From contig NZ_CP162602.1 in assembly GCF_040957575.1 (NCBI RefSeq), positions 810,896-874,895 on the forward strand: 64,000 bases of DNA. The letters run 5' to 3'. The notes under the pieces were generated by a model. It was not told the origin of the DNA, ran no database searches, and was given only the letters and a program-made list of their open reading frames with translations. A program made the translations under genes and the position numbers. Source of the stretch: Vibrio sp. HB236076. Its GTDB lineage: Bacteria; Pseudomonadota; Gammaproteobacteria; Enterobacterales; Vibrionaceae. Of this stretch, positions 281 through 54,920 are shown in pieces; the stretch's first letter is position 1, and each line of letters begins with the position of its first letter.

Positions 281-320
281 ACAGTGCAACACAGTTTGGG
301 ACAGTAAAACACAGTCACAA
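281..320 (-). repeat. Four ACAGT decamers (inverse orientation of the composite-repeat array)
   Basis: ACAGT occurs at 281, 291, 301 and 311, exactly 10 bp apart. This is the reverse complement of the ACTGT decamers found after position 464, so the hairpin head at 400-444 is bracketed by arrays pointing in opposite directions. The bases from 321 to 399 show no gene or recognisable site. Confidence 0.75.
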
Positions 321-399
321 GGAAAACCGAGAAAAAAAACCAAACCTTTATTTTTTGATTTTGACCTTACTTGAGCCTTGAGCTAGATAGAGAAAATAA

Positions 400-620
400 C
401 GGGACACTCACCTATTTCGACGCCTGAAATACATGCGTGTCCCGAACTCTTTGCCTGTTCTAGACTGTCCTTCACTGTCTTAAACTTTTTTACCTTGCCA
501 CTTGCAGCGCAGCGATCTTGAAACGAAGTGATCTTGCCCCTGTGTTTCACTGTCCCACACGGCAAAGTGACTGCACTTCACTGTTTTAAACTGCAGTTTA
601 CTGTGTTTTACTGTCTGTCT
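400..620 (+). repeat. Composite repeat copy A (hairpin head, ACTGT decamers, conserved block)
   Basis: The head has inverted arms CGGGACAC (400-407) and GTGTCCCG (437-444). ACTGT-type units follow at 464, 474 and 484. Next comes the conserved block that starts TTACCTTGCCACTTGCAGC and ends in CTTGCCCCTG (about 487-541), then units at 548, 569, 579, 589, 599 and 609. The array ends about 25 bp before the start codon of the next gene. The same architecture recurs five more times in the first 12 kb. Confidence 0.85.
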
Positions 621-644
621 CTTATGTATCAATAGGATATGAAA

Positions 645-935
645 ATGCAAAACAACGTCAATCTTCTCGTCACACTGAAAGCGAAGGAAGATAAGCTTTC
701 AGAGTTTAAGGAAATTCTCGCCAAATTGTGCTCAGAAAGCCAAAAAGAACCCGGCTGTATTGAATACTGCTCAGGTGAAGTGATTGATGAAAACACCTTT
801 TTTATCAAAGAGTGTTGGGAAAACGAAGAGGCTCTAGAGCAGCATAAGCAAACGTCTCATTTTCTGGAATTAGGCCCATTGCTCGGTGAATGCACAACCT
901 CAATTGAACTCAAGCGTGTGCAGTGGAATCAATAA
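645..935 (+). CDS. Antibiotic biosynthesis monooxygenase (ABM) domain protein, YgiN-like
   Basis: A 96-residue protein that fills a single ABM (dimeric alpha/beta barrel) domain. It has an N-terminal beta strand (NLLVTLKAKEDKLSEF), the family-typical EPGCIEY segment, then FFIKECWENEEALEQHKQT with the W-x-x-x-E-A-L and H signature, and a final strand. Family members are small cofactor-free quinol or heme-type monooxygenases, but the substrate cannot be told from sequence. ATG 645 was preferred to ATG 639 because the AGGA at 634-637 is 7 nt from 645 and only 1 nt from 639. The gene stands alone between repeat copies A and B, each within about 30 bp. That makes it look like a mobile or cassette-like cargo gene (inference). 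Confidence 0.85.
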   Translation: MQNNVNLLVTLKAKEDKLSEFKEILAKLCSESQKEPGCIEYCSGEVIDENTFFIKECWENEEALEQHKQTSHFLELGPLLGECTTSIELKRVQWNQ

Positions 936-964
936 ATCCTGTCGAATAACAGTGGCAAAAAATA

Positions 965-1131
965 GCGGGACACTCACCAATTTCCACCGTTCAATTTCAT
1001 GCGTGTCCCGCACTCTTTTCCGTTCTAGACTGTCTTTAACTTTTTACCTTGCCACTTGCAACGAAGTGATCTTGCCCCTGTCTTTTACTTTGTTTGACTG
1101 TACTAGACTGTCCTTAACTGTCATTTACTAA
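965..1131 (+). repeat. Composite repeat copy B, with a shortened conserved block
   Basis: The head arms are GCGGGACAC (965-973) and GTGTCCCGC (1003-1011), a perfect 9-bp inverted pair. Decamer units start at 1029 and 1039, and after the block at 1087, 1097, 1107, 1117 and 1127. The conserved block lacks the GCGCAGCGATCTTG part present in the other copies. This looks like a deletion between short direct repeats. Confidence 0.85.
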
Positions 1132-1141
1132 AAATAGCGGT

Positions 1142-1843
1142 TTAAATTGTTTCTGATGAGATAACTTCAACACCGGACTTTTCAAGTTCTGAATATATTT
1201 TCTGGATATTTTCTTCACTTGGGTCAACGGCTCTGGTTAAGTCTTTAATAAAGTACGTTTTATAGTCCAAGTTAGCTCCATCAATCGCGGTGGCTTTCAC
1301 GCAGTAGTCTGCTGCCAGCCCAACCACATAGATTTCATCCACCTGTTGCGATTTTAAAAAGTCGTCTAGGTCGGTTTTAGCCGATTGATTGTTATCTTTG
1401 AAGCCACTGTAGCTGTCTACGTTAGGATCCAAACCTTTAAAAGTGGTGTGGGTTATTTTGTCAGTTGTTAGGCCGTTAACAAACTCTGCACCTAATGTAT
1501 TTTGCACACAATGATCGGGCCACAGCACCTGGTCAACTCCACCAAGTACAGACATATCAAACGGTTTTTTTCCTGAATGTTGACTGGCAAAACTGCCATG
1601 ATTGGCGGGATGCCAATCTTTTGTTGCCACAACGATATCGAACTTTTCTTGCAATTGATTAATCCCTTGCACGATATCCCTTCCTCCTTTCACTGGCAGA
1701 CTGTGCACGACAGAATCCGCCCCTGAAACAAAACAGTTCTGCATATCAACTATGATTAACGCTTTTTTTGCGTAGGTTGGCGTACTAAACGCTAAACTAG
1801 AAGATAAAATAAACATACATAGGGAAATAATTTTCGTTTTCAT
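1142..1843 (-). CDS. Exported nicotinamidase/isochorismatase-family hydrolase
   Basis: A 233-residue cysteine hydrolase that would convert nicotinamide to nicotinate. The PncA catalytic triad is visible as D33 (VDMQNCF), K136 and C181 (DYCVK). The metal ligands appear as D76, H78 and H82 (KDWHPANH), with the WPDHC motif at 108-112. Unlike ordinary cytoplasmic PncA it begins with a Sec-type signal peptide: KTK, a hydrophobic core at about 5-20, and a likely cleavage after TYA (residue 25). This predicts a periplasmic enzyme. A cytoplasmic paralogue sits at 47341-47970. The start is supported by AAGGATGAGCG just upstream. The gene is flanked by repeat copies B and C together with the neighbouring acetyltransferase gene. 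Confidence 0.88.
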   Translation of the reverse strand: MKTKIISLCMFILSSSLAFSTPTYAKKALIIVDMQNCFVSGADSVVHSLPVKGGRDIVQGINQLQEKFDIVVATKDWHPANHGSFASQHSGKKPFDMSVLGGVDQVLWPDHCVQNTLGAEFVNGLTTDKITHTTFKGLDPNVDSYSGFKDNNQSAKTDLDDFLKSQQVDEIYVVGLAADYCVKATAIDGANLDYKTYFIKDLTRAVDPSEENIQKIYSELEKSGVEVISSETI

Positions 1844-2069
1844 CGCTCATCCTTGATGGGTAATTAAAATTCCCACTCTCTATTGCAAGCTTTAAGCCAT
1901 TGATTATATTTACCCTAACATCAAAAGCGCAGTAACGATTACCACCAGCAGTAACAGCGAATACGCACCAAAATAGGGACTTCAATCCCGCTCTTAAGGC
2001 ACTGCACTTTATGTAATTCCTAACTTAGCTGTCCCAAATCAAGCTTCACCGTTCGACACTGAATTTTTT

Positions 2070-2546
2070 CTATAGTCGTTTTTCCATCCGTAAAAGGCCC
2101 CAAGCCTCTCCGTCGAAAAAGCGAGAACCTTTTTCATAAGATGTGACCGTAAAACCCAATGACTCATAGCAATGTATCGCCACTGTATTTTGTTCAAATA
2201 CAGCTAATGACAATAAGTTAGCGCTGTGTTTTTCTTTCGCTAAATCAATTAATTGACCAAGCATGAGCTTTGAAATACCCTTACCACGAAAACTGACTGA
2301 AACAAACACACGACATATTCTGAAGTGAGACTCCGTCACTTTGAATAGTTCTATATAACCCGCACTCTGACCTGAGACCACAAAAATAAAGGGAAATACG
2401 TCCGGTTGCGAGCAATGCTTACTAATTTGCGTCGAGTCCAAAGGGAACTCAAAGTTTGGTCCGCCCCATTGATAGTTCAATTTATCCGAGTCAATCCAAC
2501 TGATAAGCAGGTGATGATCGCGCTTTTCAAATGCTCTAAGTTCCAT
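2070..2546 (-). CDS. GNAT-family N-acetyltransferase
   Basis: A 158-residue acetyl-CoA-dependent acyltransferase of the GNAT fold. It opens with MELRAFEKRDHHLLISWI and has the acetyl-CoA loop RVFVSVSFRGKGISKLML (V-x-x-x-x-R-G-K-G-x-S-x-x-L). A late segment, NTVAIHCYESLGF, is typical of motif B in ribosomal-protein or amino-acid acetyltransferases; the substrate is not predictable. A longer frame begins at 2588, but its extra 14 codons come from the hairpin head of repeat copy C. AGAGG sits correctly before ATG 2546, so the shorter form is chosen. The promoter region is therefore almost entirely repeat sequence. Confidence 0.85.
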   Translation of the reverse strand: MELRAFEKRDHHLLISWIDSDKLNYQWGGPNFEFPLDSTQISKHCSQPDVFPFIFVVSGQSAGYIELFKVTESHFRICRVFVSVSFRGKGISKLMLGQLIDLAKEKHSANLLSLAVFEQNTVAIHCYESLGFTVTSYEKGSRFFDGEAWGLLRMEKRL

Positions 2547-2568
2547 TCTGCCTCTAATGATTTTTACA

Positions 2569-2755
2569 GGACACCCACCTATTGCCACCGCTCAAATTCA
2601 TGCGTGTCCCGTACTCTTTGCCTTTCCTAGACTGTCCTTCACTTTTTACCTTGCCACTTGCAGCGCAGCGATCTTGAAATGAAGTGATCTTGCCCCTGTC
2701 TTTTACTGTGTTTGACTGTCTAAAACTGTGTCACACTGTTCTAGACTGCCCTTCT
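2569..2755 (+). repeat. Composite repeat copy C
   Basis: The head arms are GGACAC (2569-2574) and GTGTCC (2604-2609). Decamer units occur at 2631 and 2641. The conserved block lies at about 2644-2698. Further units fall at 2705, 2715, 2725, 2735 and 2745, again exactly 10 bp apart. The head lies 22 bp upstream of the acetyltransferase start codon, and the tail ends just before a putative promoter for the copper operon. Confidence 0.85.
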
Positions 2756-2770
2756 CGGTGTAGTATTTTA

Positions 2771-2813
2771 TTGACAGCATGAAAGCTATAGTAGATATTT
2801 ATTGTATCTATAG
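2771..2813 (+). promoter_or_regulatory. Putative promoter and operator of the copper/silver operon
   Basis: A perfect TTGACA (-35) at 2771-2776 is followed after 17 bp by GATATT (2794-2799), a 4/6 match to a -10 box. Overlapping it is a dyad: CTATAG at 2786-2791 and again at 2808-2813, plus TAGATA (2792-2797) facing TATCTA (2805-2810). A regulator overlapping the core promoter would fit a metal-inducible operon, but its identity cannot be given. Confidence 0.4.
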
Positions 2814-2829
2814 AAAATAAGTGTTTGTG

Positions 2830-3201
2830 ATGCGAAAAAAAATGCACACAATTTGGGTGACATTTGTAACGTTAGTAGTTTTAACACTATCTAGCGCTCT
2901 CCCTGCTTCACCTCTTATTTCTGTCAATGCTCACTCATCACCTAAAATGAGTATGGCAGCCGATTCGAGCGGCTCACACTGCGATTCACCTCAACAAAGT
3001 ATCGCTAGTGACAACACTATATGCTGTGATGATAAAGCCTCAGAAAACCAATGCTACAGTCATTGCTTCACTGTCCATACTACTTTTACCCCATCGACTT
3101 ATAATTTTTCGCAAAGTTTCGGCCTCGTTCTTATTTCAAAAGAACTGAATAATCAAATTAACTCAATTTCCAGTTCACTTTTCCGTCCCCCTATCGCTTA
3201 A
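2830..3201 (+). CDS. Small secreted Cys/His-rich protein leading the cus operon
   Basis: A protein of about 123 residues with an N-terminal signal sequence or anchor (KKMHTIWVTFVTLVVLTL, then SSALPASP). The middle is rich in Met, His and Cys (MSMAADSSGSHCDS, ICCDD, NQCYSHCF), and the C-terminus is SLFRPPIA. It lies first in the metal efflux operon. Short exported proteins with this layout and an RPP-type end occur ahead of copper RND operons (DUF2946/CopL-like); I infer kinship from layout and not from a clear motif match. It may bind copper in the periplasm or act as a leader. GTG 2821 is an alternative start, and neither start has a strong ribosome binding site. Confidence 0.6.
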   Translation: MRKKMHTIWVTFVTLVVLTLSSALPASPLISVNAHSSPKMSMAADSSGSHCDSPQQSIASDNTICCDDKASENQCYSHCFTVHTTFTPSTYNFSQSFGLVLISKELNNQINSISSSLFRPPIA

Positions 3202-3321
3202 ATTCCATCAGATGATCTCGATCATCACTCTCTTTTCACGCGCATTTCCCGCGTGACTCATTCTGTTTGCAAGCGATTAGTTTTGCTAATCACTTACACC
3301 TGTAAACGATTGGAATTAAAA

Positions 3322-4662
3322 GTGAAAATCAAAACCGTATCTCTAGCACTGCTATTAAATACTGTGCTGACACCTTCCTATGCCAGTGAAGGCCAATTGA
3401 CGTTAAATAACATTATTGAACTTGCGGTAGCCCGTGATCAGGGCGTCGTTCAGCTCAACTTACAATCCTTATCACTTAAGGAAACCGGAATCGCCAGCGC
3501 AACCTTGTTAGACCCAAAAGTAAAATTTGGAGTGAGTGGTCTACCTGTCGACAGTTTTCAGCTCGATGATGATGCCATGACCAATATTTCTATTGGACTC
3601 TCTCAGCAGTTCAGCCGTGGCGCCACACTCGATTTATCAAAAAAACATTATCAGCAACAGGCTCAGGCGATGAATTATAAGGCAGATCTGCGAAAACTTG
3701 ATATCGCCAAAAGTATTACGCAGCTGTGGATAGAGCTAAACTACCTGACTCGTGAGCGTGAGCTTATTAATGAAATGCATCAACTCATGCAGCAAATGCG
3801 CCGCTTTATTGAGACCAACTACTCGCTCGGTAAAAGTGAAACACAAGACTTGCTTTACGCTGAGCTTCAGGTAAGTCAACTCAACGAGCAAATCCAGAAA
3901 AATCGTCAAATGCAACAGCGTATTCGTGCACAACTCTCTGAGTGGGTGGAACCTGAATACCTTCAACAAGCTCAACTAAATGACTCTTTAGAAAACCACT
4001 GGCAATCATTGCTCGCTATCGACAAAACCCGCAACTCTGACTCGATGGCGTATTTTGATTTACTGGCAACTCACCCGAAAGTTAAAGCCGTAGAACAAAT
4101 AATACAGAGCAAACAAACTCAAGTGTCTATCGCTGAGCAATCTTACCGACCTCAGTTCGGTGTTGAAGTGGCATATGCCTTCAGACAAGCGAACAGTATG
4201 GATGGACAGCCCGCATCCGATTTAGTCAGCGCTTATTTAACGATGGATATACCTCTATTCACTGATAAAAAACAAGATCGACAATACTCAGCAGCACAAC
4301 ATCGTCTTAGTGCGGCCAAATCTCAAAAAGATCGCCTTTTGGTTCAGATGAATGCCAGAGTCAACACTCTAATTTCCGATAAACACAATTTGCAAGACCG
4401 TATTAACCGCTATCAAAAAGTGTTAGTCAAACAAGCCAAAGAACGTACTCAAGCCATTGAACGTGGGTATGAAAATAATACGGCTCAGTTTAGTGAACTC
4501 ATTAGTGCAGCCAAAGATGAGCTCATGATCGCGAAAGAACAGGCGCGTTTAGTGGCCGACATAAACAACACCCAAAATGAACTTGCCTATGTACTCAACC
4601 GCTACGACCAAAATATCACTGAACTGAGTACCGCTTATGAGCTTGAGGAGAACAATCAATGA
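3322..4662 (+). CDS. cusC: CusC-like outer membrane factor (TolC family)
   Basis: The outer-membrane channel of a tripartite metal exporter, 446 residues from the chosen GTG start. The signal peptide is MKIKTVSLALLLNTVLTPSYA, cleaved before SEGQL. Two long coiled helical hairpins follow, rich in Gln, Ala, Leu and Glu (for example KSETQDLLYAELQVSQLNEQ and later AQFSELISAAKDEL), as in the two repeats of TolC proteins. The frame stays open upstream to 3253, but that extension lacks a credible ribosome site, whereas GGA at 3312 is 7 nt before GTG 3322. The last four bases overlap the next gene (ATGA). No lipobox cysteine is present, unlike Escherichia CusC. Confidence 0.85.
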   Translation: MKIKTVSLALLLNTVLTPSYASEGQLTLNNIIELAVARDQGVVQLNLQSLSLKETGIASATLLDPKVKFGVSGLPVDSFQLDDDAMTNISIGLSQQFSRGATLDLSKKHYQQQAQAMNYKADLRKLDIAKSITQLWIELNYLTRERELINEMHQLMQQMRRFIETNYSLGKSETQDLLYAELQVSQLNEQIQKNRQMQQRIRAQLSEWVEPEYLQQAQLNDSLENHWQSLLAIDKTRNSDSMAYFDLLATHPKVKAVEQIIQSKQTQVSIAEQSYRPQFGVEVAYAFRQANSMDGQPASDLVSAYLTMDIPLFTDKKQDRQYSAAQHRLSAAKSQKDRLLVQMNARVNTLISDKHNLQDRINRYQKVLVKQAKERTQAIERGYENNTAQFSELISAAKDELMIAKEQARLVADINNTQNELAYVLNRYDQNITELSTAYELEENNQ

Positions 4663-6362
4663 AATCACTACCTGTAGCTACATTGGCACTGCTTATCGGT
4701 GGCATTTTAGGTTTTTCCGCAAATCAATACTTTATGGGCGGGCATGAAATGGGCCCAGGCTCTATATCCGATGCAGAAGAAAAAGAACCTCTTTATTGGG
4801 TGGCCCCCATGGATCCTAACTATCGCCGAGATTCTCCGGGCAAGTCTCCAATGGGAATGGACCTTATCCCGGTTTACGATGAAACCTCCTCAAACCAATC
4901 AAAGAAAGGCACGGTTAAGATTGACCCAGCAGTAGAAAACAATCTCGGCGTTAAAACCGCCAGTGCCTCTTTCAATAAATTGACACCGCAAATTGATACC
5001 GTGGGATACATCAAGTTTGATGAAAGTCGTTTGTGGCAAATCAACAGCCGAGTGACTGGCTGGATAGACCACCTTAATGTGAATACAGTTGGACAACAGG
5101 TATCTAAAGGTGATGTGCTTTTTACTCTTTTCTCTCCTGAATTAGTGAAAGCACAAGAAGAATTGCTCAATGCCTATCGCACTGGTCGTAAAGGTTTGAT
5201 TAACGCTGCGAGAGAGCGCTTGGTTGTGCTGGGGATGGATAAAAACCAGATTAACCAGGTGGTAAAACAAGGACGAACGAGCAAAAACATCGCGATAAAC
5301 GCCCCTGCTAATGGTGTGATCGCTCAATTAAACATCCGCAAAGGAGGTTACATATCCCCCGCTCAAACAGTTATCAAAGCAGGGCCGCTCGATGAGGTTT
5401 GGGTCGATGTAGAAGTATTTGAGCGTCAAGCACACTGGGTTGAAATAGGCACTCGTGCCTCTATGGTACTAGCCGCTATTCCCGGTCGAACCTGGCAAGG
5501 AAACGTTGATTATATCTATCCCATTTTAGATGCGAGAACAAGAACGCTTAAAGTGCGCTTAACGTTTTCAAACCAAGATGGCCTACTCAAACCCAATATG
5601 TTCGCTAACGTGATACTTCAGGCAGAATCGAAAACACCAGTCCTAACTATCCCACGAGAATCGGTCATTCGTTCGGGGGGGATGACCCGAGTTGTGCTGT
5701 CTGAAGGCAATGGAAACTACCGCTCCGCAAGAATCGAGGTGGGCAGAGAAGCCGGAGACGTTATTGAGGTTATTTCTGGCCTATCTGCAAGAGATAAGGT
5801 CGTCACCTCCGCTCAATTTATGCTCGACTCTGAATCCAGTCAAACCGCAGAGCTAGAGCGAATCAATGGCGTGCAGGCCAAGAACTCTAGTGTCTGGGTC
5901 AAAGGACAAGTTACCGACATGATGGTTGGACATCGCATGGCGACGATTAATCATCAACCCGTTGAAGAGTGGCAATGGCCAGGAATGGTCATGAACTTTC
6001 ACTTTGCAGAGGGTTTGGATATAGCCATGATTAAACCCGGTCAATCTATCGAGTTTGAAATTCACAAAACCGACTCTGGTCAATATGAAATTCTCGACTT
6101 CAACGTCGGCGACTCTGATATTGCCAACGAGGTTTGGAGCTCTGGGAAGATAAGTATGCTCATGGCCGATTTTGGTATGTTAACTGTCGTGCACGACCCC
6201 ATCCCTGATTGGTATTGGGAAGCGGGAGAAATGAACTTCTCTGTAGATGAGAGCATCAACTTAAACCACTTTACCGAAGGGCAGTCAGTTCGGTTTCTCA
6301 TCAACCGATCAGATAGTGAGCCCAAATTGGTTGCGCTTGAGCCAGTCGGAGGCAATCAATGA
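4659..6362 (+). CDS. cusB: CusB-like periplasmic adaptor with tandem CusF-like domains
   Basis: The membrane-fusion subunit of a Cu(I)/Ag(I) efflux pump, 567 residues. It has an N-terminal anchor (1-25), a heavy-metal-binding motif YWVAPMDPNYRRDSPGKSPM at 46-65 followed by GMDLIPVYD, then barrel-sandwich and hairpin adaptor domains. Two CusF-like copper-binding domains end the protein, at about 412-485 and 492-562. The first keeps the full CusF metal set at CusF spacing: H432, W440, M443 and M445 (WPGMVMNF). The second keeps H512, W520 and M525 but has Gly where the first Met should be (WEAGEMNF). Single CusF fusions are familiar, whereas two in tandem is less usual. The gene overlaps cusC and cusA by ATGA, so the three are translationally coupled. 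Confidence 0.9.
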   Translation: MKSLPVATLALLIGGILGFSANQYFMGGHEMGPGSISDAEEKEPLYWVAPMDPNYRRDSPGKSPMGMDLIPVYDETSSNQSKKGTVKIDPAVENNLGVKTASASFNKLTPQIDTVGYIKFDESRLWQINSRVTGWIDHLNVNTVGQQVSKGDVLFTLFSPELVKAQEELLNAYRTGRKGLINAARERLVVLGMDKNQINQVVKQGRTSKNIAINAPANGVIAQLNIRKGGYISPAQTVIKAGPLDEVWVDVEVFERQAHWVEIGTRASMVLAAIPGRTWQGNVDYIYPILDARTRTLKVRLTFSNQDGLLKPNMFANVILQAESKTPVLTIPRESVIRSGGMTRVVLSEGNGNYRSARIEVGREAGDVIEVISGLSARDKVVTSAQFMLDSESSQTAELERINGVQAKNSSVWVKGQVTDMMVGHRMATINHQPVEEWQWPGMVMNFHFAEGLDIAMIKPGQSIEFEIHKTDSGQYEILDFNVGDSDIANEVWSSGKISMLMADFGMLTVVHDPIPDWYWEAGEMNFSVDESINLNHFTEGQSVRFLINRSDSEPKLVALEPVGGNQ

Positions 6363-9300
6363 TCCCTAACATTATAAGATGGTCCATCAACAATCGGTTT
6401 GTCGTCCTTATTTTGACTTTGTTGCTCGTTTTTGCCGGTGTGTTTAGCATAAAAAACACCCCTATCGATGCACTGCCTGATCTCTCTGATGTTCAGGTTA
6501 TCATCAAAACAAGTTACCCAGGACAAGCCCCGCAAGTCGTCGAAGATCAGGTGACTTACCCATTAACGACAGCCATGCTAGCTGTACCAGGTGCAGAAAC
6601 CGTACGTGGCTACTCTTTCTTTGGAGATTCCTATGTTTATATCATTTTTAATGATAATACAGATATTTACTGGGCTCGCTCTAGAGTACTGGAGTATCTC
6701 AGCCAGGTCTTACCGAACCTCCCTGACAATGCCAAGCCGACACTTGGGCCAGATGCCACGGGTGTCGGCTGGGTTTACAGTTATGTCCTTCAAGACAAAA
6801 GCGGTAAACACGATTTATCTGAGCTTCGAAGTTATCAAGACTGGTTCTTAAAATATGAGCTACAAACCGTTAATGGGGTCTCAGAAGTCGCTACCGTTGG
6901 CGGTATGGTTAAGCAATACCAAATACACATTGATCCTGCCAAACTACGTGCTTACGACCTCACACTACAACAAGTCAATGAGGCGATTAGACTGGGTAAT
7001 CAGGAAACGGGGGCATCAGTAATTGAAGTCGCTGAAGCAGAGCATATGGTACGAACAACGGGGTACTTGTCCGGTATAGAAGATATTAAAGCACTGCCAC
7101 TTAAGGTGACCGAAAAGGGAACCCCATTACTATTGGGTGATATTGCTGATATCAATCTGGGGCCTCAGATGCGTCGAGGTATCTCTGAGTTTAACGGTGA
7201 AGGTGAAGCCGTTGGCGGTGTGATTGTGATGCGTTTTGGGGAAAATGCCAGTAATGTCATCAGCAATGTAAAGCAGAAACTTGTTGAGCTTAAATCCAGC
7301 CTGCCGGAAGGCATTGAGATTGTTGCCACTTACGATCGCTCAACACTGATCAATAAAGCGGTCGACAACCTGTGGGAAAAACTGGCGGAAGAGTTTTTTG
7401 TGGTCGCCATTGTGTGTGCGCTTTTTCTCTATCACATCCGCTCATCGTTAGTCATTGCACTTAGCTTACCCGTGGGTATTTTTTCAGCTTTTATCATCAT
7501 GTATTGGCAAGGGATTAACGCCAACATAATGTCACTAGGAGGGATTGCGATTGCGATTGGTGCCATGGTTGACGGAGCTATCGTGATGATAGAAAACGTG
7601 CATAAACATATTGAGCGAACGCCGTTAACAGATAAAAACCGATGGCAGGTCATTGGGAAAGCAGCGCAAGAAGTCGGTGCGCCATTATTTTTTTCACTTC
7701 TTATCATTACGCTGAGCTTTGTACCGGTATTTGCGCTCGAAGGGCAAGAAGGTAAAATGTTCTCGCCACTGGCATTCACCAAGACCTATGCCATGGCGGC
7801 AGCTGCAGGCTTGTCTATTACTCTGGTGCCTGTATTGATGGGGTATCTGATACGGGGAAAAATTCTACCTGAGCACAAAAACCCCATTAACCGTTTTCTG
7901 ATCTCCTTATATAAACCGATACTTAACATCAGTCTTAAATACCCGAAAAGTATCGTGCTTATTGCACTTATCCTGATGTCATCCGCTTATATCCCTATTG
8001 CCAAGATGGGGAGTGAGTTTATTCCCCCTCTGGACGAAGGCGACTTAATGTACATGCCGACAACCTATCCGGGTATTTCCATCGGTAAAGCTCGCGAGCT
8101 CTTGCAACAAACAAACAAGCTAATAAAAACCGTGCCTGAGGTAAAAACAGTATGGGGCAAGGTTGGCCGAGCAGAAAGCGCTACAGACCCAGCTCCGCTA
8201 ACCATGATTGAGACGGTTATTCAGTTAAAACCGAAAGAAGAGTGGCGTGAAGGGATCACCACGGATTCTCTAAGGCAGGAATTTGACAATCTCATCCAAT
8301 TCCCCGGGTTAACCAATGCCTGGGTAATGCCGATCAAAACTCGTATCGATATGTTGTCGACAGGTATTAAAACCCCAATCGGGATAAAAATAGCCGGTCC
8401 TGATCTCAAAGTGATTGAAAGCATTGGGGCGAAGATCGAACCTATCCTCGATACCATTGAAGGTACCGCGTCAGTCTATGCTGAACGTGTCGCTGGGGGC
8501 AGATATGTGACTATTGATATTAAGCGCAAAGAAGCCGCCCGCTATGGTCTTAGTATCACACAAATCCAGCAAGTAATTTCAACCTCAATAGGCGGTATGA
8601 ATGTTGGTGAGACAACGGAAGGTCTAGAGCGTTATCCAATTAATATTCGATATCCTCAGACATATCGAGATTCGGTTGAGAAACTGAAAAATCTTCCACT
8701 GGTGACACCAAGTGGAGCACATATCGCACTTGCAGACGTGGCGGAGGTCCGTTTTGAAGATGGCCCACCGATGATTAAAACTGAAAATGCGCGTCCAAAC
8801 GGCTGGGTTTTTGTCGATATTTCTGGCCGAGATCTTGGTTCGTATGTCGCACAAGCAAAACAAAGCGTATCCGAACAACTGATATTGCCAGCGGGTTATT
8901 CCCTCGCCTGGTCTGGGCAATACGAATACATGGAACGCGCAAAAGCCCGGCTTAGTATCGTCACACCCGTCACCATTGCCATCATCATGTTGCTTTTGTA
9001 TTTCAGCTTCAGACGTGTTGGCGAAGTCATGATCATCATGCTCACTCTACCTCTGGCGATGGTCGGCGGACTCTGGTTGATGGACTACCTGAACTACAAC
9101 TTTTCTATAGCGGTTGGCGTAGGCTTTATCGCCCTATCTGGTGTAGCGGTAGAGATAGGGGTCATTATGTTGGTTTACCTCAATCAAGCATGGCATTACC
9201 GAAAGCTTGATTTAAAGGAAAACAAAAAGCCTCTAACATCACAAGATTTGCAAGAATCCATAATCGAAGGCGCTGGACTACGCGTTCGTCCCATCATGAT

Positions 9301-9481
9301 GACGGTTCTCACAGTCATTATCGGCTTAATCCCAATTATGCAGGGTTCCGGAACGGGCTCCGAAGTTATGCAACGTATCGCTGCACCTATGATTGGGGGG
9401 ATGGCCTCGGCGATCATACTCACCCTGCTGGTTCTGCCAGCAATTTTTAAACTCTGGAAACAGTACGAAGTTAACTCGTAA
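6359..9481 (+). CDS. cusA: CusA-like heavy-metal RND efflux pump
   Basis: The inner-membrane proton-driven RND transporter of the exporter, 1040 residues, the usual CusA/CzcA length. The heavy-metal RND signature GGIAIAIGAMVDGAIVMIEN is present with D405 in the proton-relay position. The three methionines that bind Cu(I)/Ag(I) in Escherichia CusA (573, 623, 672) have counterparts here at M566 (LMYMPTT), M616 (PLTMIET) and M665 (RIDMLSTG), with the same 50 and 49 residue spacing. This argues for Cu/Ag and not for Zn/Co/Cd. Its start overlaps the adaptor gene by 4 bp. A cupredoxin follows 64 bp downstream. Confidence 0.95.
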   Translation: MIPNIIRWSINNRFVVLILTLLLVFAGVFSIKNTPIDALPDLSDVQVIIKTSYPGQAPQVVEDQVTYPLTTAMLAVPGAETVRGYSFFGDSYVYIIFNDNTDIYWARSRVLEYLSQVLPNLPDNAKPTLGPDATGVGWVYSYVLQDKSGKHDLSELRSYQDWFLKYELQTVNGVSEVATVGGMVKQYQIHIDPAKLRAYDLTLQQVNEAIRLGNQETGASVIEVAEAEHMVRTTGYLSGIEDIKALPLKVTEKGTPLLLGDIADINLGPQMRRGISEFNGEGEAVGGVIVMRFGENASNVISNVKQKLVELKSSLPEGIEIVATYDRSTLINKAVDNLWEKLAEEFFVVAIVCALFLYHIRSSLVIALSLPVGIFSAFIIMYWQGINANIMSLGGIAIAIGAMVDGAIVMIENVHKHIERTPLTDKNRWQVIGKAAQEVGAPLFFSLLIITLSFVPVFALEGQEGKMFSPLAFTKTYAMAAAAGLSITLVPVLMGYLIRGKILPEHKNPINRFLISLYKPILNISLKYPKSIVLIALILMSSAYIPIAKMGSEFIPPLDEGDLMYMPTTYPGISIGKARELLQQTNKLIKTVPEVKTVWGKVGRAESATDPAPLTMIETVIQLKPKEEWREGITTDSLRQEFDNLIQFPGLTNAWVMPIKTRIDMLSTGIKTPIGIKIAGPDLKVIESIGAKIEPILDTIEGTASVYAERVAGGRYVTIDIKRKEAARYGLSITQIQQVISTSIGGMNVGETTEGLERYPINIRYPQTYRDSVEKLKNLPLVTPSGAHIALADVAEVRFEDGPPMIKTENARPNGWVFVDISGRDLGSYVAQAKQSVSEQLILPAGYSLAWSGQYEYMERAKARLSIVTPVTIAIIMLLLYFSFRRVGEVMIIMLTLPLAMVGGLWLMDYLNYNFSIAVGVGFIALSGVAVEIGVIMLVYLNQAWHYRKLDLKENKKPLTSQDLQESIIEGAGLRVRPIMMTVLTVIIGLIPIMQGSGTGSEVMQRIAAPMIGGMASAIILTLLVLPAIFKLWKQYEVNS

Positions 9482-9545
9482 ACACACTCAAGATCTCCTA
9501 CTTTCACAAAGGGCTATATTAATGAAAACGCAACTGAGGTTTATT

Positions 9546-10046
9546 ATGAAAAAGACAATCAGCACTCTGGTATTAATTCTACTTTCTGGCAGTGTCATTG
9601 CAGATGAGCAACACAACCACTCTGAAATGGGCGATATAAAAATGGATCATTCTAACATGGCGATGGAAGGTATGTCTGATGTCGGTATGTCTGCAAAAGG
9701 TTCCAAACCAGATAAAGTGGTTTATGTACTCTTATCTGATGATATGACTATTCGCTTCAAGCAAGAGATCACAATTGAGCCAAATGATGTCGTACAGTTT
9801 GTAGTGATGAACTCGGGTAACATTGACCATGAATTTTCTATAGGGAGCCCTGCAGAACAAGTTAAGCATCGAAAGATGATGAAAAGTATGGGAAATCACG
9901 ATCACGACACCGGTAGTAGTGTGACAGTGAAACCAGGCAAAGCAAAACAACTGCTGTGGCACTTCCATGGCGACAACAACATCGAATTTTCATGTAATAT
10001 CCCAGGTCATGCAGAAGCAGGAATGGTTAAAACCATAAAAATTTAA
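9546..10046 (+). CDS. Periplasmic cupredoxin-family copper-binding protein
   Basis: A 166-residue exported blue-copper-fold protein. The signal peptide is MKKTISTLVLILLSGSVIA. A Met/His-rich linker follows (HNHSEMGDIKMDHSNMAMEGM), then a plastocyanin/azurin-like domain. The type 1 copper ligands can be assigned as H95 (IDHEF), C150, H155 and M160 (SCNIPGHAEAGM). The Met/His-rich linker could hold additional Cu(I). ATG 9546 is preferred to ATG 9522 because GAGG lies 6 nt upstream and the shorter form has the better signal peptide. It probably works with CusCBA as a periplasmic copper chaperone or sink (inference from context). Confidence 0.88.
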   Translation: MKKTISTLVLILLSGSVIADEQHNHSEMGDIKMDHSNMAMEGMSDVGMSAKGSKPDKVVYVLLSDDMTIRFKQEITIEPNDVVQFVVMNSGNIDHEFSIGSPAEQVKHRKMMKSMGNHDHDTGSSVTVKPGKAKQLLWHFHGDNNIEFSCNIPGHAEAGMVKTIKI

Positions 10047-10124
10047 ACACATCCAAGAAGCTATAATGTAAAGGCTGTGATTTCATTTATGAAACACGAG
10101 CCCCTTAGCAACTTAGTCGTCAAA

Positions 10125-10144
10125 CCTCGCCCAAATGGGCGGGG
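10125..10144 (+). terminator. Hairpin after the copper operon
   Basis: CCTCGCCC (10125-10132) pairs with GGGCGGGG (10137-10144) around an AAAT loop, giving eight pairs including one G-U. No T-tract follows, so rho-independent termination is uncertain. The position about 80 bp past the cupredoxin fits a transcript end. Confidence 0.4.
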
Positions 10145-10227
10145 TATAAGACGTCAATTTCGATAACCTATTGTACCAATCTGACTAAATCACAGATTAA
10201 AAACTCGATAGCGTTGGTCAAAAATAA

Positions 10228-10525
10228 CGGGACACTCACCAATTTCCACCGATCAATTTCATGCGTGTCCCGCACTCTGTGCCTTTCCTAGACTGTCCTA
10301 CACTGTCTTATACTGTGTTTCACTGCCTTCAATTTTTTACCTTGCCACTTGAAGCGCAGCGATCTTGAAACGAAGTGATCTTGCCTCTGTCTTTTACTGT
10401 GTTTGACTGTCTTACACTGTGTATAACTGTCCTTCACTTTTTACCTTGCCACTTGCAGCGCAGCGATCTTGCAGCGAAGTGATCTTGCCCCTGTCTATTA
10501 CTGTTTCACACTGTTCTAGACTGAC
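10228..10525 (+). repeat. Composite repeat copy D, with the array-block unit duplicated
   Basis: The head arms are CGGGACAC (10228-10235) and GTGTCCCG (10265-10272). Decamers fall at 10292, 10302, 10312 and 10322. A first conserved block (about 10335-10390) is followed by decamers at 10396, 10406, 10416, 10426 and 10436. A second block (about 10441-10494) is followed by units at 10500, 10510 and 10520. It is the longest copy. Its last units run into the 3' end of the next minus-strand gene. Confidence 0.88.
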
Positions 10526-11456
10526 TTAACTGCTTACCATAATCCTCAATTTTCTCTCGCCAAGCCAACTTCGCCAGCCAATCGGATGGCAACCCCTCAA
10601 GGGAATAAAACGCCCCCGCTAATTGACCATAAATGGCGGCTGTTGTATCGGCATCATCACCTAAATTAGCCGCCAACAGCGCCCCTTCAGCAAAATTATC
10701 ACTGTGAGCAAAACACCAAAGTGCCGCCTCTAACGCATCGACCACAAAACCAGTCCCATTAATCTCATCGCGCGATTTAGTCACAAACGCTCCTGAGACC
10801 AGAGGGAAAAAATCCTCATGAACATGGGAAAATTGTGCCTCAAGAGAAGCGAACAAAACCGCCTTATCGCGCTCACCATGAAACACCTTATCCATTAAAT
10901 GTGCCATTATTTGACACCCTTGGATCGCTCTTTGCTCAGCGTGGGTCACCACCGAACTTGCTTCTGCCATGGCGAATAAGGTCTCTTTGCTCACCCCTTT
11001 CACGGTTGAAAAGAAAACCGCCACGGGTGCCAAACGCATCAAACTGCCATTGCCCGCAGTATAAGACTCCTCAATACCGGCATTAGGGTCGCCAATATCA
11101 AGGTAACGATTTATCGCGCTGCTCACGGTATTACCAATATCAAAACAATAGCCTTTGACTGAATTTTCCCCTTCTTCGCGCCAACGAAGGTAACGCTCGA
11201 TTTGATCTTGAGCATCGTGATCACCAACGGCCAGTAAACTCTCGGCCAAACACAGCGCCATCGAAGTATCATCGGTCCACTCACCCGCATTGAGACGAAA
11301 CGGGCCGCCACCGACCATATCGGTTAGCGGCACGTAACTGTCTTTGCTCTTAAATTCCAATGTTGTCCCTAAGGCATCACCGAGCGCTAAGCCCAGCATT
11401 GCCCCTTTAGAGCGCGAAACAAAAGACGCATTAGAAGCCATTTTGTTGTTATCCAT
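10506..11456 (-). CDS. ADP-ribosylglycohydrolase family protein
   Basis: A 316-residue hydrolase of the DraG/ARH fold, which removes ADP-ribose from proteins or related small molecules using two Mg ions. The three metal-site segments are visible: LGLALGDALG at 21-30, GEWTDDTS at 58-65 (T61, D62, D63) and GDDADTTAA at 266-274 (D268, D270, T271). The start ATG 11456 has GGGG about 7 nt upstream. The final codons, encoding about QSRTV plus the stop, are made of decamer-repeat sequence from copy D, so the element supplies the C-terminus. No ADP-ribosyltransferase gene is next to it, so its target is unknown. Repeat copies on both sides make it look like cargo. Confidence 0.9.
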   Translation of the reverse strand: MDNNKMASNASFVSRSKGAMLGLALGDALGTTLEFKSKDSYVPLTDMVGGGPFRLNAGEWTDDTSMALCLAESLLAVGDHDAQDQIERYLRWREEGENSVKGYCFDIGNTVSSAINRYLDIGDPNAGIEESYTAGNGSLMRLAPVAVFFSTVKGVSKETLFAMAEASSVVTHAEQRAIQGCQIMAHLMDKVFHGERDKAVLFASLEAQFSHVHEDFFPLVSGAFVTKSRDEINGTGFVVDALEAALWCFAHSDNFAEGALLAANLGDDADTTAAIYGQLAGAFYSLEGLPSDWLAKLAWREKIEDYGKQLSQSRTV

Positions 11457-11499
11457 TTCGTTACCCCGTCACCATGTTGACTGCTGTACACCATTTACA

Positions 11500-11651
11500 G
11501 GACACTCACCTATTTCCATCGCTCAATTTCATGCGTGTCCCGCTGTGTTTACCTGTCTTATACTGTGTCACACTGTTCTAGACTGTCCTTCACTGTCTGT
11601 TCCTTGCCACTTGCAGCGCAGCGATCTTGAAACGAAGTGATCTTGCCCCTG
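11500..11651 (+). repeat. Composite repeat copy E (tandem partner of F)
   Basis: The head arms are GGACAC (11500-11505) and GTGTCC (11535-11540). Decamers lie at 11562, 11572, 11582 and 11592. The conserved block ends with CTTGCCCCTG at about 11651. From the head to the block it matches copy F with only a handful of differences, mainly in the hairpin loop. Confidence 0.88.
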
Positions 11652-11666
11652 CTTTGTACAAAAATA

Positions 11667-11905
11667 GCGGGACACTCACCAATTTCCACCGCTCGATTTC
11701 ATGCGTGTCCCGCTGTGTTTACCTGTCTTACACTGTGTCACACTGTTCTAGACTGTCCTTCACTGTCTGTTCCTTGCCACTTGCAGCGCAGCGATCTTGA
11801 AACGAAGTGATCTTGCCCCTGTCTTTTACTGTGTTTGACTGTCTTGCACTGTGTCACACTGTCCTAGACTGTCCTAGACTCTCCTTCACTGTTCTTTGAG
11901 CGAAG
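11667..11905 (+). repeat. Composite repeat copy F (tandem partner of E)
   Basis: The head arms are GCGGGACAC (11667-11675) and GTGTCCCGC (11705-11713). Decamers lie at 11732, 11742, 11752 and 11762. The block follows, then a seven-unit array at 11828, 11838, 11848, 11858, 11868, 11878 and 11888. The array ends beside GAGCGAAGCGACC, 20 bp before the stop of the DUF1566 gene on the other strand. Confidence 0.88.
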
Positions 11906-28938: not shown

Positions 28939-29040
28939 TTCATCAGGACAGGCTTCATCGGGACACGCACCAAAATCGCCAACAGGACACGCATTAAAAA
29001 CGCAATCGGGGACACGCACCAAAATCGCAAACAAGGACAC
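28939..29040 (+). repeat. Cluster of five GGACA tags, including a 20-bp exact repeat
   Basis: Five GGACA units lie in about 100 bp, four of them GGACAC: at about 28946, 28961, 28985, 29010 and 29035. GGGACACGCACCAAAATCGC is found exactly at 28960-28979 and 29009-29028. All units point the same way. The last, AAGGACAC, lies so that its AAGGA sits 9 nt before the next start codon. Confidence 0.8.
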
Positions 29041-48024: not shown

Positions 48025-48753
48025 CTACTTCATAACAAAAAGGCTTTCGTAAATCGCCACACTGCCCGATACCGAGCACAACAACAAGGCTGAATACCTC
48101 ACGGTTTGCTTGGGTAAGTGTTCTGTGGTTTTAATCGCCAAAAAGAACCCCGCCATCGTCGCCGGAATCAACGGGACACTCATGTAAATATGTGACCATG
48201 TCACATGTCCTAATACAACCAAAACCGCAATCGATATTAAAGAGCTGGCAATAAAAAAGGCCGACAAATTGGCGCGCAACGAATGCGCTTCTTGATGTTG
48301 AAGTAATAACGCCATCGGTGGGCCACCAATCGCACTACTGGTCCCAAATAAACCAGAAAAGAACCCCGCAACCGCCATACGCCTTGGTGTGGGTTCATAG
48401 CGAATCGGCATTAAACTCACCAACACCGCCACTAACACCAGAACGCCAACCCACATCGACAGCACAGAACTAGAAACCCAGACTAATAAACCCGCGCCCA
48501 ACAACGACCCAGGTACTCTGCCAAGCAGCGCCATTTTCAACTGCCCAATTTTAATACTGCGACGATGACGGACCGCCCCCAACAATGCGACCGTGAACGC
48601 ACTGATAATGATCGGTAAAGGGACCCACTGCGGGTCGAGTATGATCAAGACCGGCGCGGCAATAATTGCCAACCCAAAGCCAATCGCCGTTTGTACATAA
48701 GCACCAATAAAAATCACCAACATCGGCAACCACAATTCCTCTATACTCATCAT
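48025..48753 (-). CDS. TSUP-family membrane transporter (TauE/SafE)
   Basis: A 242-residue membrane protein with seven to eight hydrophobic helices. The TSUP marks are YVQTAIGFGLAIIAAPVLII at 19-38 and the second-half repeat FFSGLFGTSSAIGGPPMALL. Family members export or import sulfite, sulfoacetate or other organosulfur anions. The start codon lies 3 nt from a repeat tag (TGTCCTGAA), and no Shine-Dalgarno is visible. A stretch of this coding sequence (48165-48213) is nearly identical to intergenic DNA 800 bp away. Its stop is 54 bp before the pncA start, so a TSUP-pncA-AEC operon is possible. Confidence 0.85.
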   Translation of the reverse strand: MMSIEELWLPMLVIFIGAYVQTAIGFGLAIIAAPVLIILDPQWVPLPIIISAFTVALLGAVRHRRSIKIGQLKMALLGRVPGSLLGAGLLVWVSSSVLSMWVGVLVLVAVLVSLMPIRYEPTPRRMAVAGFFSGLFGTSSAIGGPPMALLLQHQEAHSLRANLSAFFIASSLISIAVLVVLGHVTWSHIYMSVPLIPATMAGFFLAIKTTEHLPKQTVRYSALLLCSVSGSVAIYESLFVMK

Positions 48754-48755
48754 TT

Positions 48756-49216
48756 CAGGACAGCCACCTATTTCATCAAAATCATCATTAAACCATTACC
48801 CATCGTGGTCTTCTCAACCCAACCATGTTCAGGACACCCATACATTTACGATCACTTGCAAAGGACATCTCTCGACGCGACACCTACCCGGACACACACA
48901 AAATTTCACAACACTTTTAAGACAACCACAAGCTTCAAAACTGTGCCCCCCATGAATCAACGGGATGGAATCAACGGGACACTCAGAATCAACGGGACAC
49001 TCATATAAATATGTGACCATGTCACATGTCCTAAAAAACGTTGAGGACAGTCATAAAAACAACGACAACGCCATTGTCTAGACAGGCATGAACTTTTAGC
49101 CACACTAATCTACAACAAAGCTCCGGACACTCAACAAAGATCCGGACACTTAAGGATACATATACTCACAGCAGTTGCGGACAGTCATAAAACAGTCCAA
49201 ACATAATATCAGGGAC
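48756..49216 (+). repeat. Tag-rich intergenic cluster of GGACA units
   Basis: At least ten GGACA units lie on the plus strand between TSUP and LysE, including 48758, 48831, 48863, 48890, 48976, 48995, 49054, 49126, 49144, 49173 and 49213. Variants are GGACACTCA, GGACAGTCATAAAA and GGACACCCA. The first (GGACAGCCACCTATTTC) resembles the heads of the composite repeats at 0-12 kb. Spacing is irregular (about 20-85 bp). No gene is seen in the region. Confidence 0.8.
48986..49034 (+). repeat. 49-bp near-copy of a segment of the TSUP coding sequence
   Basis: This stretch matches 48165-48213, inside the TSUP gene, over 49 bp with a single mismatch (A for G at 49005). Both copies contain GGGACACTCA and the palindrome ATGTGAC-CAT-GTCACAT followed by GTCC. 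An extra GGAATCAACGGGACACTCA lies just upstream at 48967. Confidence 0.9.
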
Positions 49217-49437
49217 AGACACCGAGTGAGTTATTGGCAACCACTTTCTCTCACTATCGCACTCAATTTAGGTCCATCGTTCATATCGCACAATAGTGTA
49301 CTTTAATCGGTTGATAAAGGCGTTAACTTTTACAACAATGACAATTATTTAGCATAATCGTCTATCAAAAAGTCTTCCTCTCTCGGTCGCTTATCGATAC
49401 AATTGGTTTCACATTAATGTATTAAGGAAGATACCTA
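49217..49437. other. Upstream region of the LysE-family gene
   Basis: This stretch is AT-rich with no tags. It should hold the promoter of the LysE gene, but I see no clear -35/-10 pair. AAGGAAG just before 49438 is the ribosome binding site. Confidence 0.35.
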
Positions 49438-52968: not shown

Positions 52969-53059
52969 ATTTAACCTCGACATTATGCCCTAGCTTCAAC
53001 TCAAAGGCGAGTTGCGGCTGAGAATTTACTCAATCACCCGCAGCGACACTCCCCAATCT

Positions 53060-53240
53060 ACAGGACAGTCAATATCTATAGGACAGTCAACAATCTCTAT
53101 CAAACGGTGAAAAAATACTGTGGGACAGTCACAAAATTAACCGTATCACACCCGGAGCAGTTTCCCCTTCTGTAAAACCACCTTAAACGGCTTCATTATT
53201 ACTTAACTGAGAACAAGTGATCATTGGGACAGTCATGATC
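53060..53240 (+). repeat. GGACAGTCA tags upstream of the RAYT gene
   Basis: GGACAGTCA occurs at 53063, 53081, 53123 and 53227, always on the plus strand, and the last three are part of A/G-GGACAGTCA. They lie 135-310 bp before the transposase gene. The remainder of 52969-53374 holds no visible gene. Confidence 0.8.
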
Positions 53241-54550: not shown

Positions 54551-54920
54551 AAGGACAATTTATAAGGACAGTCATCTTCCACTGTCACACATCATGGTAA
54601 ATAGAAAATAAAATTATTAATTAACATACTTATTTAAAATGATTTTTTAAAAGTTTTTAATGTTGAGAATAAAATGTTTTCAGGGTATTAATTGAGTGTC
54701 CATTTTTCCGTTGCTTGAGCTTGTGAGCTGTCTCAATATGCTTTGAAGAGATACTCACCTACTTTTTGACTGTACTATTGAACTTGGACAGTGCTATTGA
54801 ACTGTTCTGCTGAGTTTGATGTGATTAAACTTTCTGTGTGTCCACAAAAAAGAGTGATTGTGGATGTTAGCTGCTCACAAAAACATGAGTGTCCCCTTGA
54901 TGAATTTATGAGTGTCCACC
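54551..54920 (-). repeat. GAGTGTCC (inverted GGACACTC) tags downstream of the RAYT gene
   Basis: Two plus-strand GGACA tags (about 54552 and 54566) are followed by minus-strand tags: GAGTGTCC at 54694-54701, GTGTCC at 54838-54843, and GAGTGTCC at 54887-54894 and 54911-54918. A further plus-strand GGACA unit lies at 54786. Most outer tags face the opposite way from those upstream of the transposase. The rest of 54368-54944 holds no gene that I can support. Confidence 0.75.

Follow-up and report, generated by a model that had tools for sequence, protein, structure and literature searches.

At its left edge, the window, i.e., the whole 64-kb stretch of Vibrio DNA analysed, cuts into a reading frame whose stop codon lies at 259-261. 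An array of four cores in reverse orientation (ACAGT, positions 281-315, minus strand) begins 20 nts past this codon and forms the sole left arm in the window. Downstream, six composite copies lie on the plus strand, as the initial annotation had proposed, each combining a GGACAC..GTGTCC hairpin (start positions 402, 968, 2569, 10230, 11500 and 11670), ACTGT decamers and a block of the CTTGCARCGAAGCGAT type. In copy 1, the hairpin head GGGACAC..GTGTCCC (401-443) is followed by a first ACTGT array (464-478, exact cores at 464 and 474), a block of 16-bp units (CTTGCCACTTGCAGCGCAGCGATCTTGAAACGAAGTGATCTTGCC; 494-538) and a second array (549-614, exact cores at 549, 580, 600 and 610). The head of copy 2 (967-1009) precedes cores at 1029, 1097, 1107 and 1117 (1029-1121), which flank a short block (1048-1076). 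Copy 3 carries an AGGACAC..GTGTCCC head (2568-2610) and then, over 2631-2749, a core at 2631, a block (2650-2694) and an array (2695-2749; exact cores at 2705, 2715, 2725 and 2735). Copy 4 has a head at 10229-10271 and extends over 10292-10514 as three arrays (10292-10316, 10396-10430 and 10500-10514) separated by two blocks (10341-10385 and 10445-10489), with exact cores at 10292, 10302 and 10312, from 10396 to 10426, and at 10500 and 10510. Copy 5 (head 11499-11541; remainder 11562-11647) contains an array at 11562-11596, with exact cores from 11562 to 11592, and a block at 11603-11647, while copy 6 (head 11669-11711; remainder 11732-11892) contains an array (11732-11766), a block (11773-11817) and a second array (11828-11892), with exact cores from 11732 to 11762, from 11828 to 11868 and at 11888. 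Together, copies 5 and 6 make up a tandem duplication of 170 bp (93% identity). No Rfam family matched the window at gathering scores.

The ACTGT arrays are real and more extensive than first reported, which partly confirms the original observation. The motif ACTGTN5ACTGT occurs 26 times in the window, compared with a mean of 0.11 and a maximum of 2 in 100 dinucleotide shuffles, in agreement with the 10-bp phasing described earlier; 23 occurrences are on the plus strand and the other three make up the reverse array at 281-315. The block was also said to usually keep 64 bp between flanking decamers. One block has this step, but the others measure 55, 38, 54, 54 and 52 bp and the seventh lacks a right-hand unit, when units with at most one mismatch are counted (the 38 bp of the second block includes the units at 1077 and 1087, and 52 becomes 56 if an overlapping partial match at 11766 is ignored). 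Because block steps vary, the 10-bp register, described as kept across all copies, is held within arrays but lost across the block. Likewise, the selection of a single helix face applies locally: the DNA helix makes a turn about every 10.5 bp, hence steps of 10.0 bp drift over long arrays, and 26 pairs are spaced 19 bp apart.

Genome-wide, 170 exact triple decamers were found, compared with none for a reversed-pattern control. The stretches read contain all but one of them (169/170), with 112 in C1:370-665 kb and the rest next to rRNA operons, at C1:1738 kb and at two sites on C2. Arrays are absent from 20 control stretches (400 kb). Within the C1 region, 248 of 268 array units are located outside called genes and 20 inside. 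Array sites occupy 6 of 33 convergent, 13 of 101 co-directional and 3 of 34 divergent gaps; this gap-type preference is not significant (chi-square p 0.52), and for that reason the idea that arrays prefer gene 3′ ends was dropped. A superintegron was also discarded, the genes named in the dense region being ordinary (rpe, rpsF/rplI, capsule, uvrA, ssb, mdh, leu), judging from their names.

The exact spacing extends to the other copies: 278 ACTGT pairs lie exactly 10 bp apart, seven at 11 bp and none at 8, 9 or 12 bp, and none of the 59 other permutations of ACTGT exceeds 15 pairs at the 10-bp distance, both counts being made on sequence selected for hits. Information per base reaches 1.45-1.88 bits in the core vs 0.30-0.98 bits in the spacers, with last units omitted and units accepted at four of five core matches, which inflates the core figure; 89 distinct spacers occur among 396. 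Across 784 paralogous alignments (both directions counted), 2.5% of core and 33% of spacer positions are mismatched, compared with 15.5% at the edges of arrays and 8.2% outside them; swapped units, and not mutation, account for some of the spacer difference. For the 75-80% identity band, the values for core, spacer and outside are 2.9, 37.6 and 17.1%. Middle units of the C1 region retain the core in 56 of 60 cases in one-armed arrays and in 56 of 65 in two-armed ones. The notion of phased arrays built around a constrained core is therefore supported, with a conserved core, far more variable spacers and one-armed retention that is no weaker. That the ACTGT word is held while the bases between it change suggests that something recognises ACTGT.

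The better period is 20 bp, i.e., a direct repeat of two alternating 10-bp half-units, of the ACTGT+CTYAY and ACTGT+GTTTS types. Across 42 arrays, lag-1 similarity is below all 5000 within-array shuffles and lag-2 similarity above all but 3 of 5000, lag-3 is unremarkable (3138 of 5000) and lag-4 high (36 of 5000), while the C/G alternation of 0.79 vs 0.60 was reached in none of 5000 shuffles; these arrays share descent and are not independent of each other. The lag-1 and lag-2 similarities counter simple 10-bp slippage as a rule. Slippage, suggested earlier as the way the array grows, is not the main mode of growth, since adjacent units resemble each other less than chance predicts, and units two steps apart more. 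An exception is the C2:140 kb array, whose 15 near-homogeneous units resemble the outcome of simple slippage. Among the 408 gaps of the paralogous alignments, lengths of 10 bp (55) and 20 bp (16) are prominent.

The reading tentatively preferred here is that of a lineage-specific composite extragenic repeat, whose arrays would be tandem 10+10-bp sites for a putative DNA-binding protein. Several observations argue against binding. Regulator sites are expected at promoters, and the arrays show no gap-type preference. In the ≥95% identity band, core mismatch (1.0%, 2/197) exceeds that outside arrays (0.5%). Furthermore, with hundreds of sites in a single species, amplification of a repeat looks a better account than selection acting at each site. 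No candidate for the binding protein emerged from the Pfam names of 10 window proteins and of 30 of the 35 coding stretches listed beside C1 arrays.

A close rival, itself no more than possible, is a selfish repeat driven by recombination and without a binder. An intact ACTGT would be needed to anneal, priming template switching or unequal exchange, and copying itself would keep the core while the other bases hitch-hike and get reshuffled. Whole-unit indels, units swapped between near-identical copies, recurrent unit trains, the 170-bp tandem duplication in the window, the near-homogeneous 15-unit array at C2:140 kb and the regional clustering of arrays are all consistent with this process. 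However, simple 10-bp slippage predicts similar neighbours, whereas those observed resemble each other less than expected by chance. Five matching bases are few for priming, and recombination offers no explanation for needing 5 of every 10 bases rather than 20-bp identity.

Gene borders bear on another alternative. Among 36 gaps with units, 18 contain one ACAGT arm and then one ACTGT arm, eight ACTGT only, none ACAGT only, and 10 other mixtures, five of which are repeats of the ACAGT-then-ACTGT order. The first unit past the stop codon is a sense ACAGT in 25 of 28 genes, and the first unit lies within 21 nts after the stop codon in 17 of 28 cases vs 2 of 16 before the start codon. Such an order of arms would suit an RNA or DNA hairpin between genes, in which ACAGT arms pair with ACTGT arms at any 10-nt register and which could act as a bidirectional terminator, an insulator or an mRNA 3′-end protector, as proposed for REP/BIME. 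Three hand-picked two-armed loci fold strongly (z -9.4, -5.7 and -5.0), and looser blocks (up to 5 mismatches) occur in the C1 region on either strand (38 and 40, compared with 9 and 12 in a 400-kb control), making whole elements roughly palindromic. However, folding is weak in three stretches of the window (z -1.6 and -2.6 as RNA, -0.8 as DNA), and the two arms of a locus show no pairing advantage over arms exchanged among loci (13 loci; 4878 of 5000 permutations gave equal or greater stability). One-armed arrays retain the core as well, the gap-type preference is not significant, and at leuD, rplI and one tRNA-Asp hairpins that look terminator-like by eye persist between the gene and its array. 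A hairpin function is unlikely, and a locus-specific hairpin as the cause of core conservation was rejected, being unsupported by arm swapping or by one-armed arrays.

The heads and blocks raise the question of mobility. GGACAC heads number 20 in the stretches read, and 10 by the strict pattern; their direction, judged from printed sequences, is uniform within each region (13/13 in the C1 region, 7/7 in C2), although C1-region heads adjoin genes of both strands. A palindromic head in a single orientation per region fits a non-autonomous REP- or MITE-like element, moved by an HUH or other transposase recognising the GGACAC hairpin. Strict blocks in the C1 region number 30 on the plus strand and one on the minus, and over C1 as a whole, clusters of strict blocks run in one direction in 14 of 15 cases on the right replichore and in the opposite direction in 4 of 5 on the left (Fisher p 0.005, in a table without two plus-strand clusters at 893 kb). 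This rule is confined to the strict pattern, looser matches occurring on both strands, and a general block orientation was discarded. All five left-replichore clusters lie near rRNA operons, whose orientation could account for that of the clusters, and C2 copies are on the plus strand where GC skew is negative, opposite to the C1 rule; on both grounds, replication-coupled single-strand insertion was also set aside. PF01797 (Y1/RAYT) proteins are absent from the genome at E ≤ 0.001, whereas 5 of 14 control genomes are positive; this negative covers the present genome, and other strains may carry tnpA-REP. Target duplication was not demonstrated: none was seen by eye in the loci read, and the closest relative, 79% identical over 671 bp at leuD, is too distant to fix boundaries. 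With no PF01797 protein, no demonstrated target duplication and heads uniform per region, the non-autonomous transposon suggested at first is very unlikely.

Comparison with known systems places the family close to REP/BIME, which are described in the available excerpts as extragenic mosaics of modules with palindromic parts and many copies per lineage (PMC3733652, PMC8266576). The family is likewise extragenic and modular, with palindromic stem-loop heads and many copies in one lineage. It differs in that no GTAG/CGTC tag accompanies any of 20 heads (within 12 nts, either side or strand), the genome lacks a Y1 transposase (PF01797), heads are uniform per region (13/13 C1, 7/7 C2) instead of inversely paired, and a phased 10/20-bp array is added. 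CRISPR, defined in an excerpt as 24-48 bp repeats with regular non-repetitive spacers (PMC3733652), was rightly dismissed at the outset, the word and the spacers here measuring 5 bp each and the spacers recurring. Head-to-tail 10-bp units with whole-unit indels are also reminiscent of 10-bp minisatellites or VNTRs, and ACTGT minisatellites are present in other phyla (GTDB contigs, among 80 listed stretches). Most of these are near-homogeneous, whereas the units of the present family vary, alternate and reappear at dozens of loci; with 89 distinct spacers among 396 the units are not near-identical, although the C2:140 kb array would pass as such a tandem repeat.

OmpR/PhoB/ToxR-type regulators bind tandem paired half-sites, direct repeats about 10 bp apart with 20 bp per pair. 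The 10-bp direct repeats and 20-bp alternation of the family would fit this arrangement, but there are hundreds of units here, in arrays of up to 15, with no preference for promoter-bearing gaps. The plasmid centromere array parC of R1 has iterons about one helical turn apart, with one protein along a face. Units here have a similar spacing, but occupy dozens of chromosomal loci, and word and spacers are very unequal in conservation. Drosophila foldback elements have inverted arms built of short tandem units, as does the present family, with the difference that here the arms of one locus are not matched to each other.

Of the Vibrio genomes searched, this one alone gave matches to the strict decamer, hairpin and block patterns. 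Plasmids and phages gave no match, in searches that may have excluded records of this genome or of one very close to it, and three viral contigs contain short near-homogeneous arrays. GTDB contigs gave at least 117 stretches; among 80 listed, most are near-homogeneous minisatellites and some are promoter-like rows in Lachnospiraceae. The view that no described element has such a plan still holds among open-licence PMC papers, in which no published description was found. The word "vibrio" is absent from the available text of PMC6006769 and PMC8266576, and in that of PMC3733652 it occurs only inside Thioalkalivibrio and Micavibrio.

Under the preferred binding-site reading, the family would be a BIME-like mosaic in which a palindromic head is combined with blocks of 16-bp units and arrays of ACTGT decamers, the core being kept through recognition by the putative protein. 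The binder would most likely be a winged-helix (OmpR/ToxR-like) or similar DNA-binding protein, whose monomers dock head to tail on paired half-sites, each one helical turn from the next. Copies may have spread within a chromosomal region via recombination or template switching, and arrays would gain and lose whole units. Bound arrays could serve as a roadblock or insulator between genes or as a protein sponge, or could be a parasite of the protein. A more elaborate version, which seems rather unlikely, has the putative protein polymerise along tandem 10+10-bp sites at dozens of gene borders, the sites being carried as well as multiplied by the composite repeat, and build a regional chromatin or insulation domain, species-specific and concentrated along a single 220-kb stretch and next to rRNA operons.

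The family is a clear natural case in which half of a repeat unit is held and half is free, in exact 10-bp steps, with none in the genus relatives searched. Should a protein be what maintains the core, the arrays would offer a ready route to a new DNA-binding protein for which hundreds of sites are already mapped; should the copying process be what maintains it, they would provide a test bed for the evolution of bacterial repeat families without a transposase.

All six composite copies described in the initial annotation are present in the window, where ACTGTN5ACTGT was observed 26 times against 0.11 expected. The genome comprises two contigs (3.88 Mb), and the window forms the end of the smaller one (C2:810,896-874,895). 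Its placement in Vibrio agrees with a protein comparison, in which Vibrio supplies many of the nearest named relatives of one protein of this genome. GC skew suggests a C2 origin near 300-350 kb and a terminus between 760 and 798 kb, which would place the window just beyond the terminus. Across the whole genome, ACTGTN5ACTGTN5ACTGT has 170 matches and the reversed control pattern none. All but one forward match fall in the stretches read (169 of 170): 112 in C1:370-665 kb of the larger contig (hereafter the C1 region), 6 at C1 885-899 kb, 4 at 1.74 Mb, 7 at 2.65 Mb, 8 at 2.91 Mb, 3 at 2.95 Mb, 14 at C2:140 kb and 15 in the window. Each array-bearing stretch at 410-425 kb, 885 kb, 2.65, 2.91 and 2.95 Mb contains an rRNA operon. 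Arrays of three units number 59 in the C1 region versus none in 20 control stretches of 20 kb elsewhere, which hold one ACTGT pair at 10 bp in all; 13 more C2 stretches of 10 kb each lack such a pair.

The recurring modules are of three kinds: hairpin heads, blocks built of 16-bp units, and arrays of decamers. Among 36 gaps with units, 18 carry an ACAGT arm followed by an ACTGT arm, 8 carry ACTGT alone and 10 carry other mixtures; in the window, every copy but the first has a single arm. Of the strict blocks found in the C1 region, 30 lie on the + strand and 1 on the -, and the AAGCGMAGCG joint occurs 5 times on + and 31 times on -. Block-like sequence with up to 5 mismatches occurs there 38 and 40 times per strand, versus 9 and 12 in a 400-kb control, and its presence on both strands means that block relatives of different kinds occupy both arms. 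By heuristic gene calls, arrays occupy 22 of the 168 C1 region gaps of at least 20 bp, without significant difference between gap types, and genes adjoining arrays are of mixed functions. Where a unit lies within 300 nt downstream of a stop codon (28 genes), ACAGT comes first in the sense direction in 25, because of arm order, and the nearest unit is within 21 nt of the stop in 17; for units within 300 nt upstream of a start codon, 2 of 16 are that close. At C1 ~577 kb (L067:11941-12242), arrays fill the space separating a gene for a LuxR-type regulator (VpsT-like by a weak match) from a UvrA-like gene, and may lie in the promoter region of the latter.

In 16 stretches chosen for holding arrays plus the window (320,411 bases; 500 units in 104 arrays), ACTGT pairs are spaced by 10 bp 278 times, 11 bp 7 times, 19 bp 26 times and 20 bp 183 times, and never by 8, 9 or 12 bp. 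The period of the arrays is better described as 20 bp than as 10 bp. This was tested with 5000 shuffles on 42 arrays of four or more exact cores (one 13-core array omitted). No shuffle made adjacent spacers as dissimilar as they are, only 3 equalled or exceeded the similarity of second neighbours, and third neighbours were unremarkable; position 6 alternates between C and G in 79% of 73 steps versus 60% expected, a value that no shuffle reached. A 15-unit array at C2 ~140.3-140.7 kb (L075:5290-5710), with about ten identical ACTGTGTTTG units, is in contrast to these alternating arrays a recent simple expansion.

Information content is 1.45-1.88 bits per base in the core and 0.30-0.98 at the other five positions. 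Over 784 paralogous alignments (both directions counted), differences amount to 2.5% in the core, 33% in spacers and 8.2% outside arrays, and among the closest paralogues (at least 95% identity) to 1.0%, 8.4% and 0.5%; unit swapping explains some of the spacer difference (51 aligned units). The 408 alignment gaps include 163 of 1 bp, 54 of 2 bp, 27 of 9 bp, 55 of 10 bp and 16 of 20 bp.

Core retention could reflect pairing of the arms into a hairpin, and three two-armed loci do fold very well (z = -9.4, -5.7 and -5.0); three window stretches fold weakly (z = -1.6, -2.6 and, as DNA, -0.8). However, in a comparison of 13 loci, two arms from one locus showed no pairing advantage over arms taken from different ones, and middle units keep the core in one-armed arrays (56 of 60) as in two-armed ones (56 of 65), hence pairing is unlikely to be the reason. 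What is left is that the word is recognised, either by a protein or by a copying process. Protein binding is narrowly favoured over self-driven recombination, neither being proven.

Head orientation is uniform within regions: all 13 heads of the C1 region, which adjoin genes of both strands, agree with one another, as do all 7 on C2. Of the 15 strict-block clusters in the C1 region, 14 share one direction. The left replichore has five such clusters, all near rRNA operons, and four of them are reversed. The 12 strict blocks of C2 run in the + direction, contrary to the leading strand. These orientations, mainly those of the heads, fit orientation-keeping local copying better than movement by a replication-guided transposase. 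A search of the genome for PF01797 proteins gave no match.

Other repeats were noticed. At C1 ~473.1-474.8 kb (L063:8090-9770), about four tandem units of ~420 bp with GGGGTCGG..CCGACCCC hairpins were seen by eye, each terminating in a short ACTGT pair, with relatives downstream of the rRNA operon in another stretch of this genome (L062:7950-8770). Short, partly tandem GGACAC/GGACAG clusters with 18-25 bp periods and no ACTGT arrays lie at window positions 28946-29040, 48174-49230, 53056-53240 and 54566-54917, and are possibly a separate family. Among contigs of other bacteria, those of Lachnospiraceae and relatives (L093, L107, L140, L141, L143, L155, L158) carry ACTGT decamers overlapping TTGACA or TTGACT (ACTGTTGACAACTGT..) in what appear to be upstream regions, where they may form a phased operator that is conserved. 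Streptococcus contigs (L100, L101, L120, L123, L126, L131, L133) carry ACTGTATTCT/ACTGTATCCT/ACTGTTTCCT minisatellites, the number of overlapping four-unit matches per contig reaching 20 in L133.

Four exact units were found in 1 of 196 genomes of the genus, the one that holds the window (92 matches). The relaxed CTGTN6 x4 pattern matches 110 times there and 1-9 times in each of 9 of 226 other genomes, either as isolated matches or as simple repeats of 5 or 10 bp, with no four ACTGT units among the matches listed. The strict head (10 in the window's genome) and strict block (56) are absent from all 226. Four units with partly fixed spacers matched 1 of 394 genomes (114 genera) order-wide, and a 316-bp copy used as DNA query matched 1 of 41. 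Since the closest relative at leuD is only 79% identical (671 bp), the repeat can be called private only with respect to the species searched. It is a real, unusual and lineage-specific composite.
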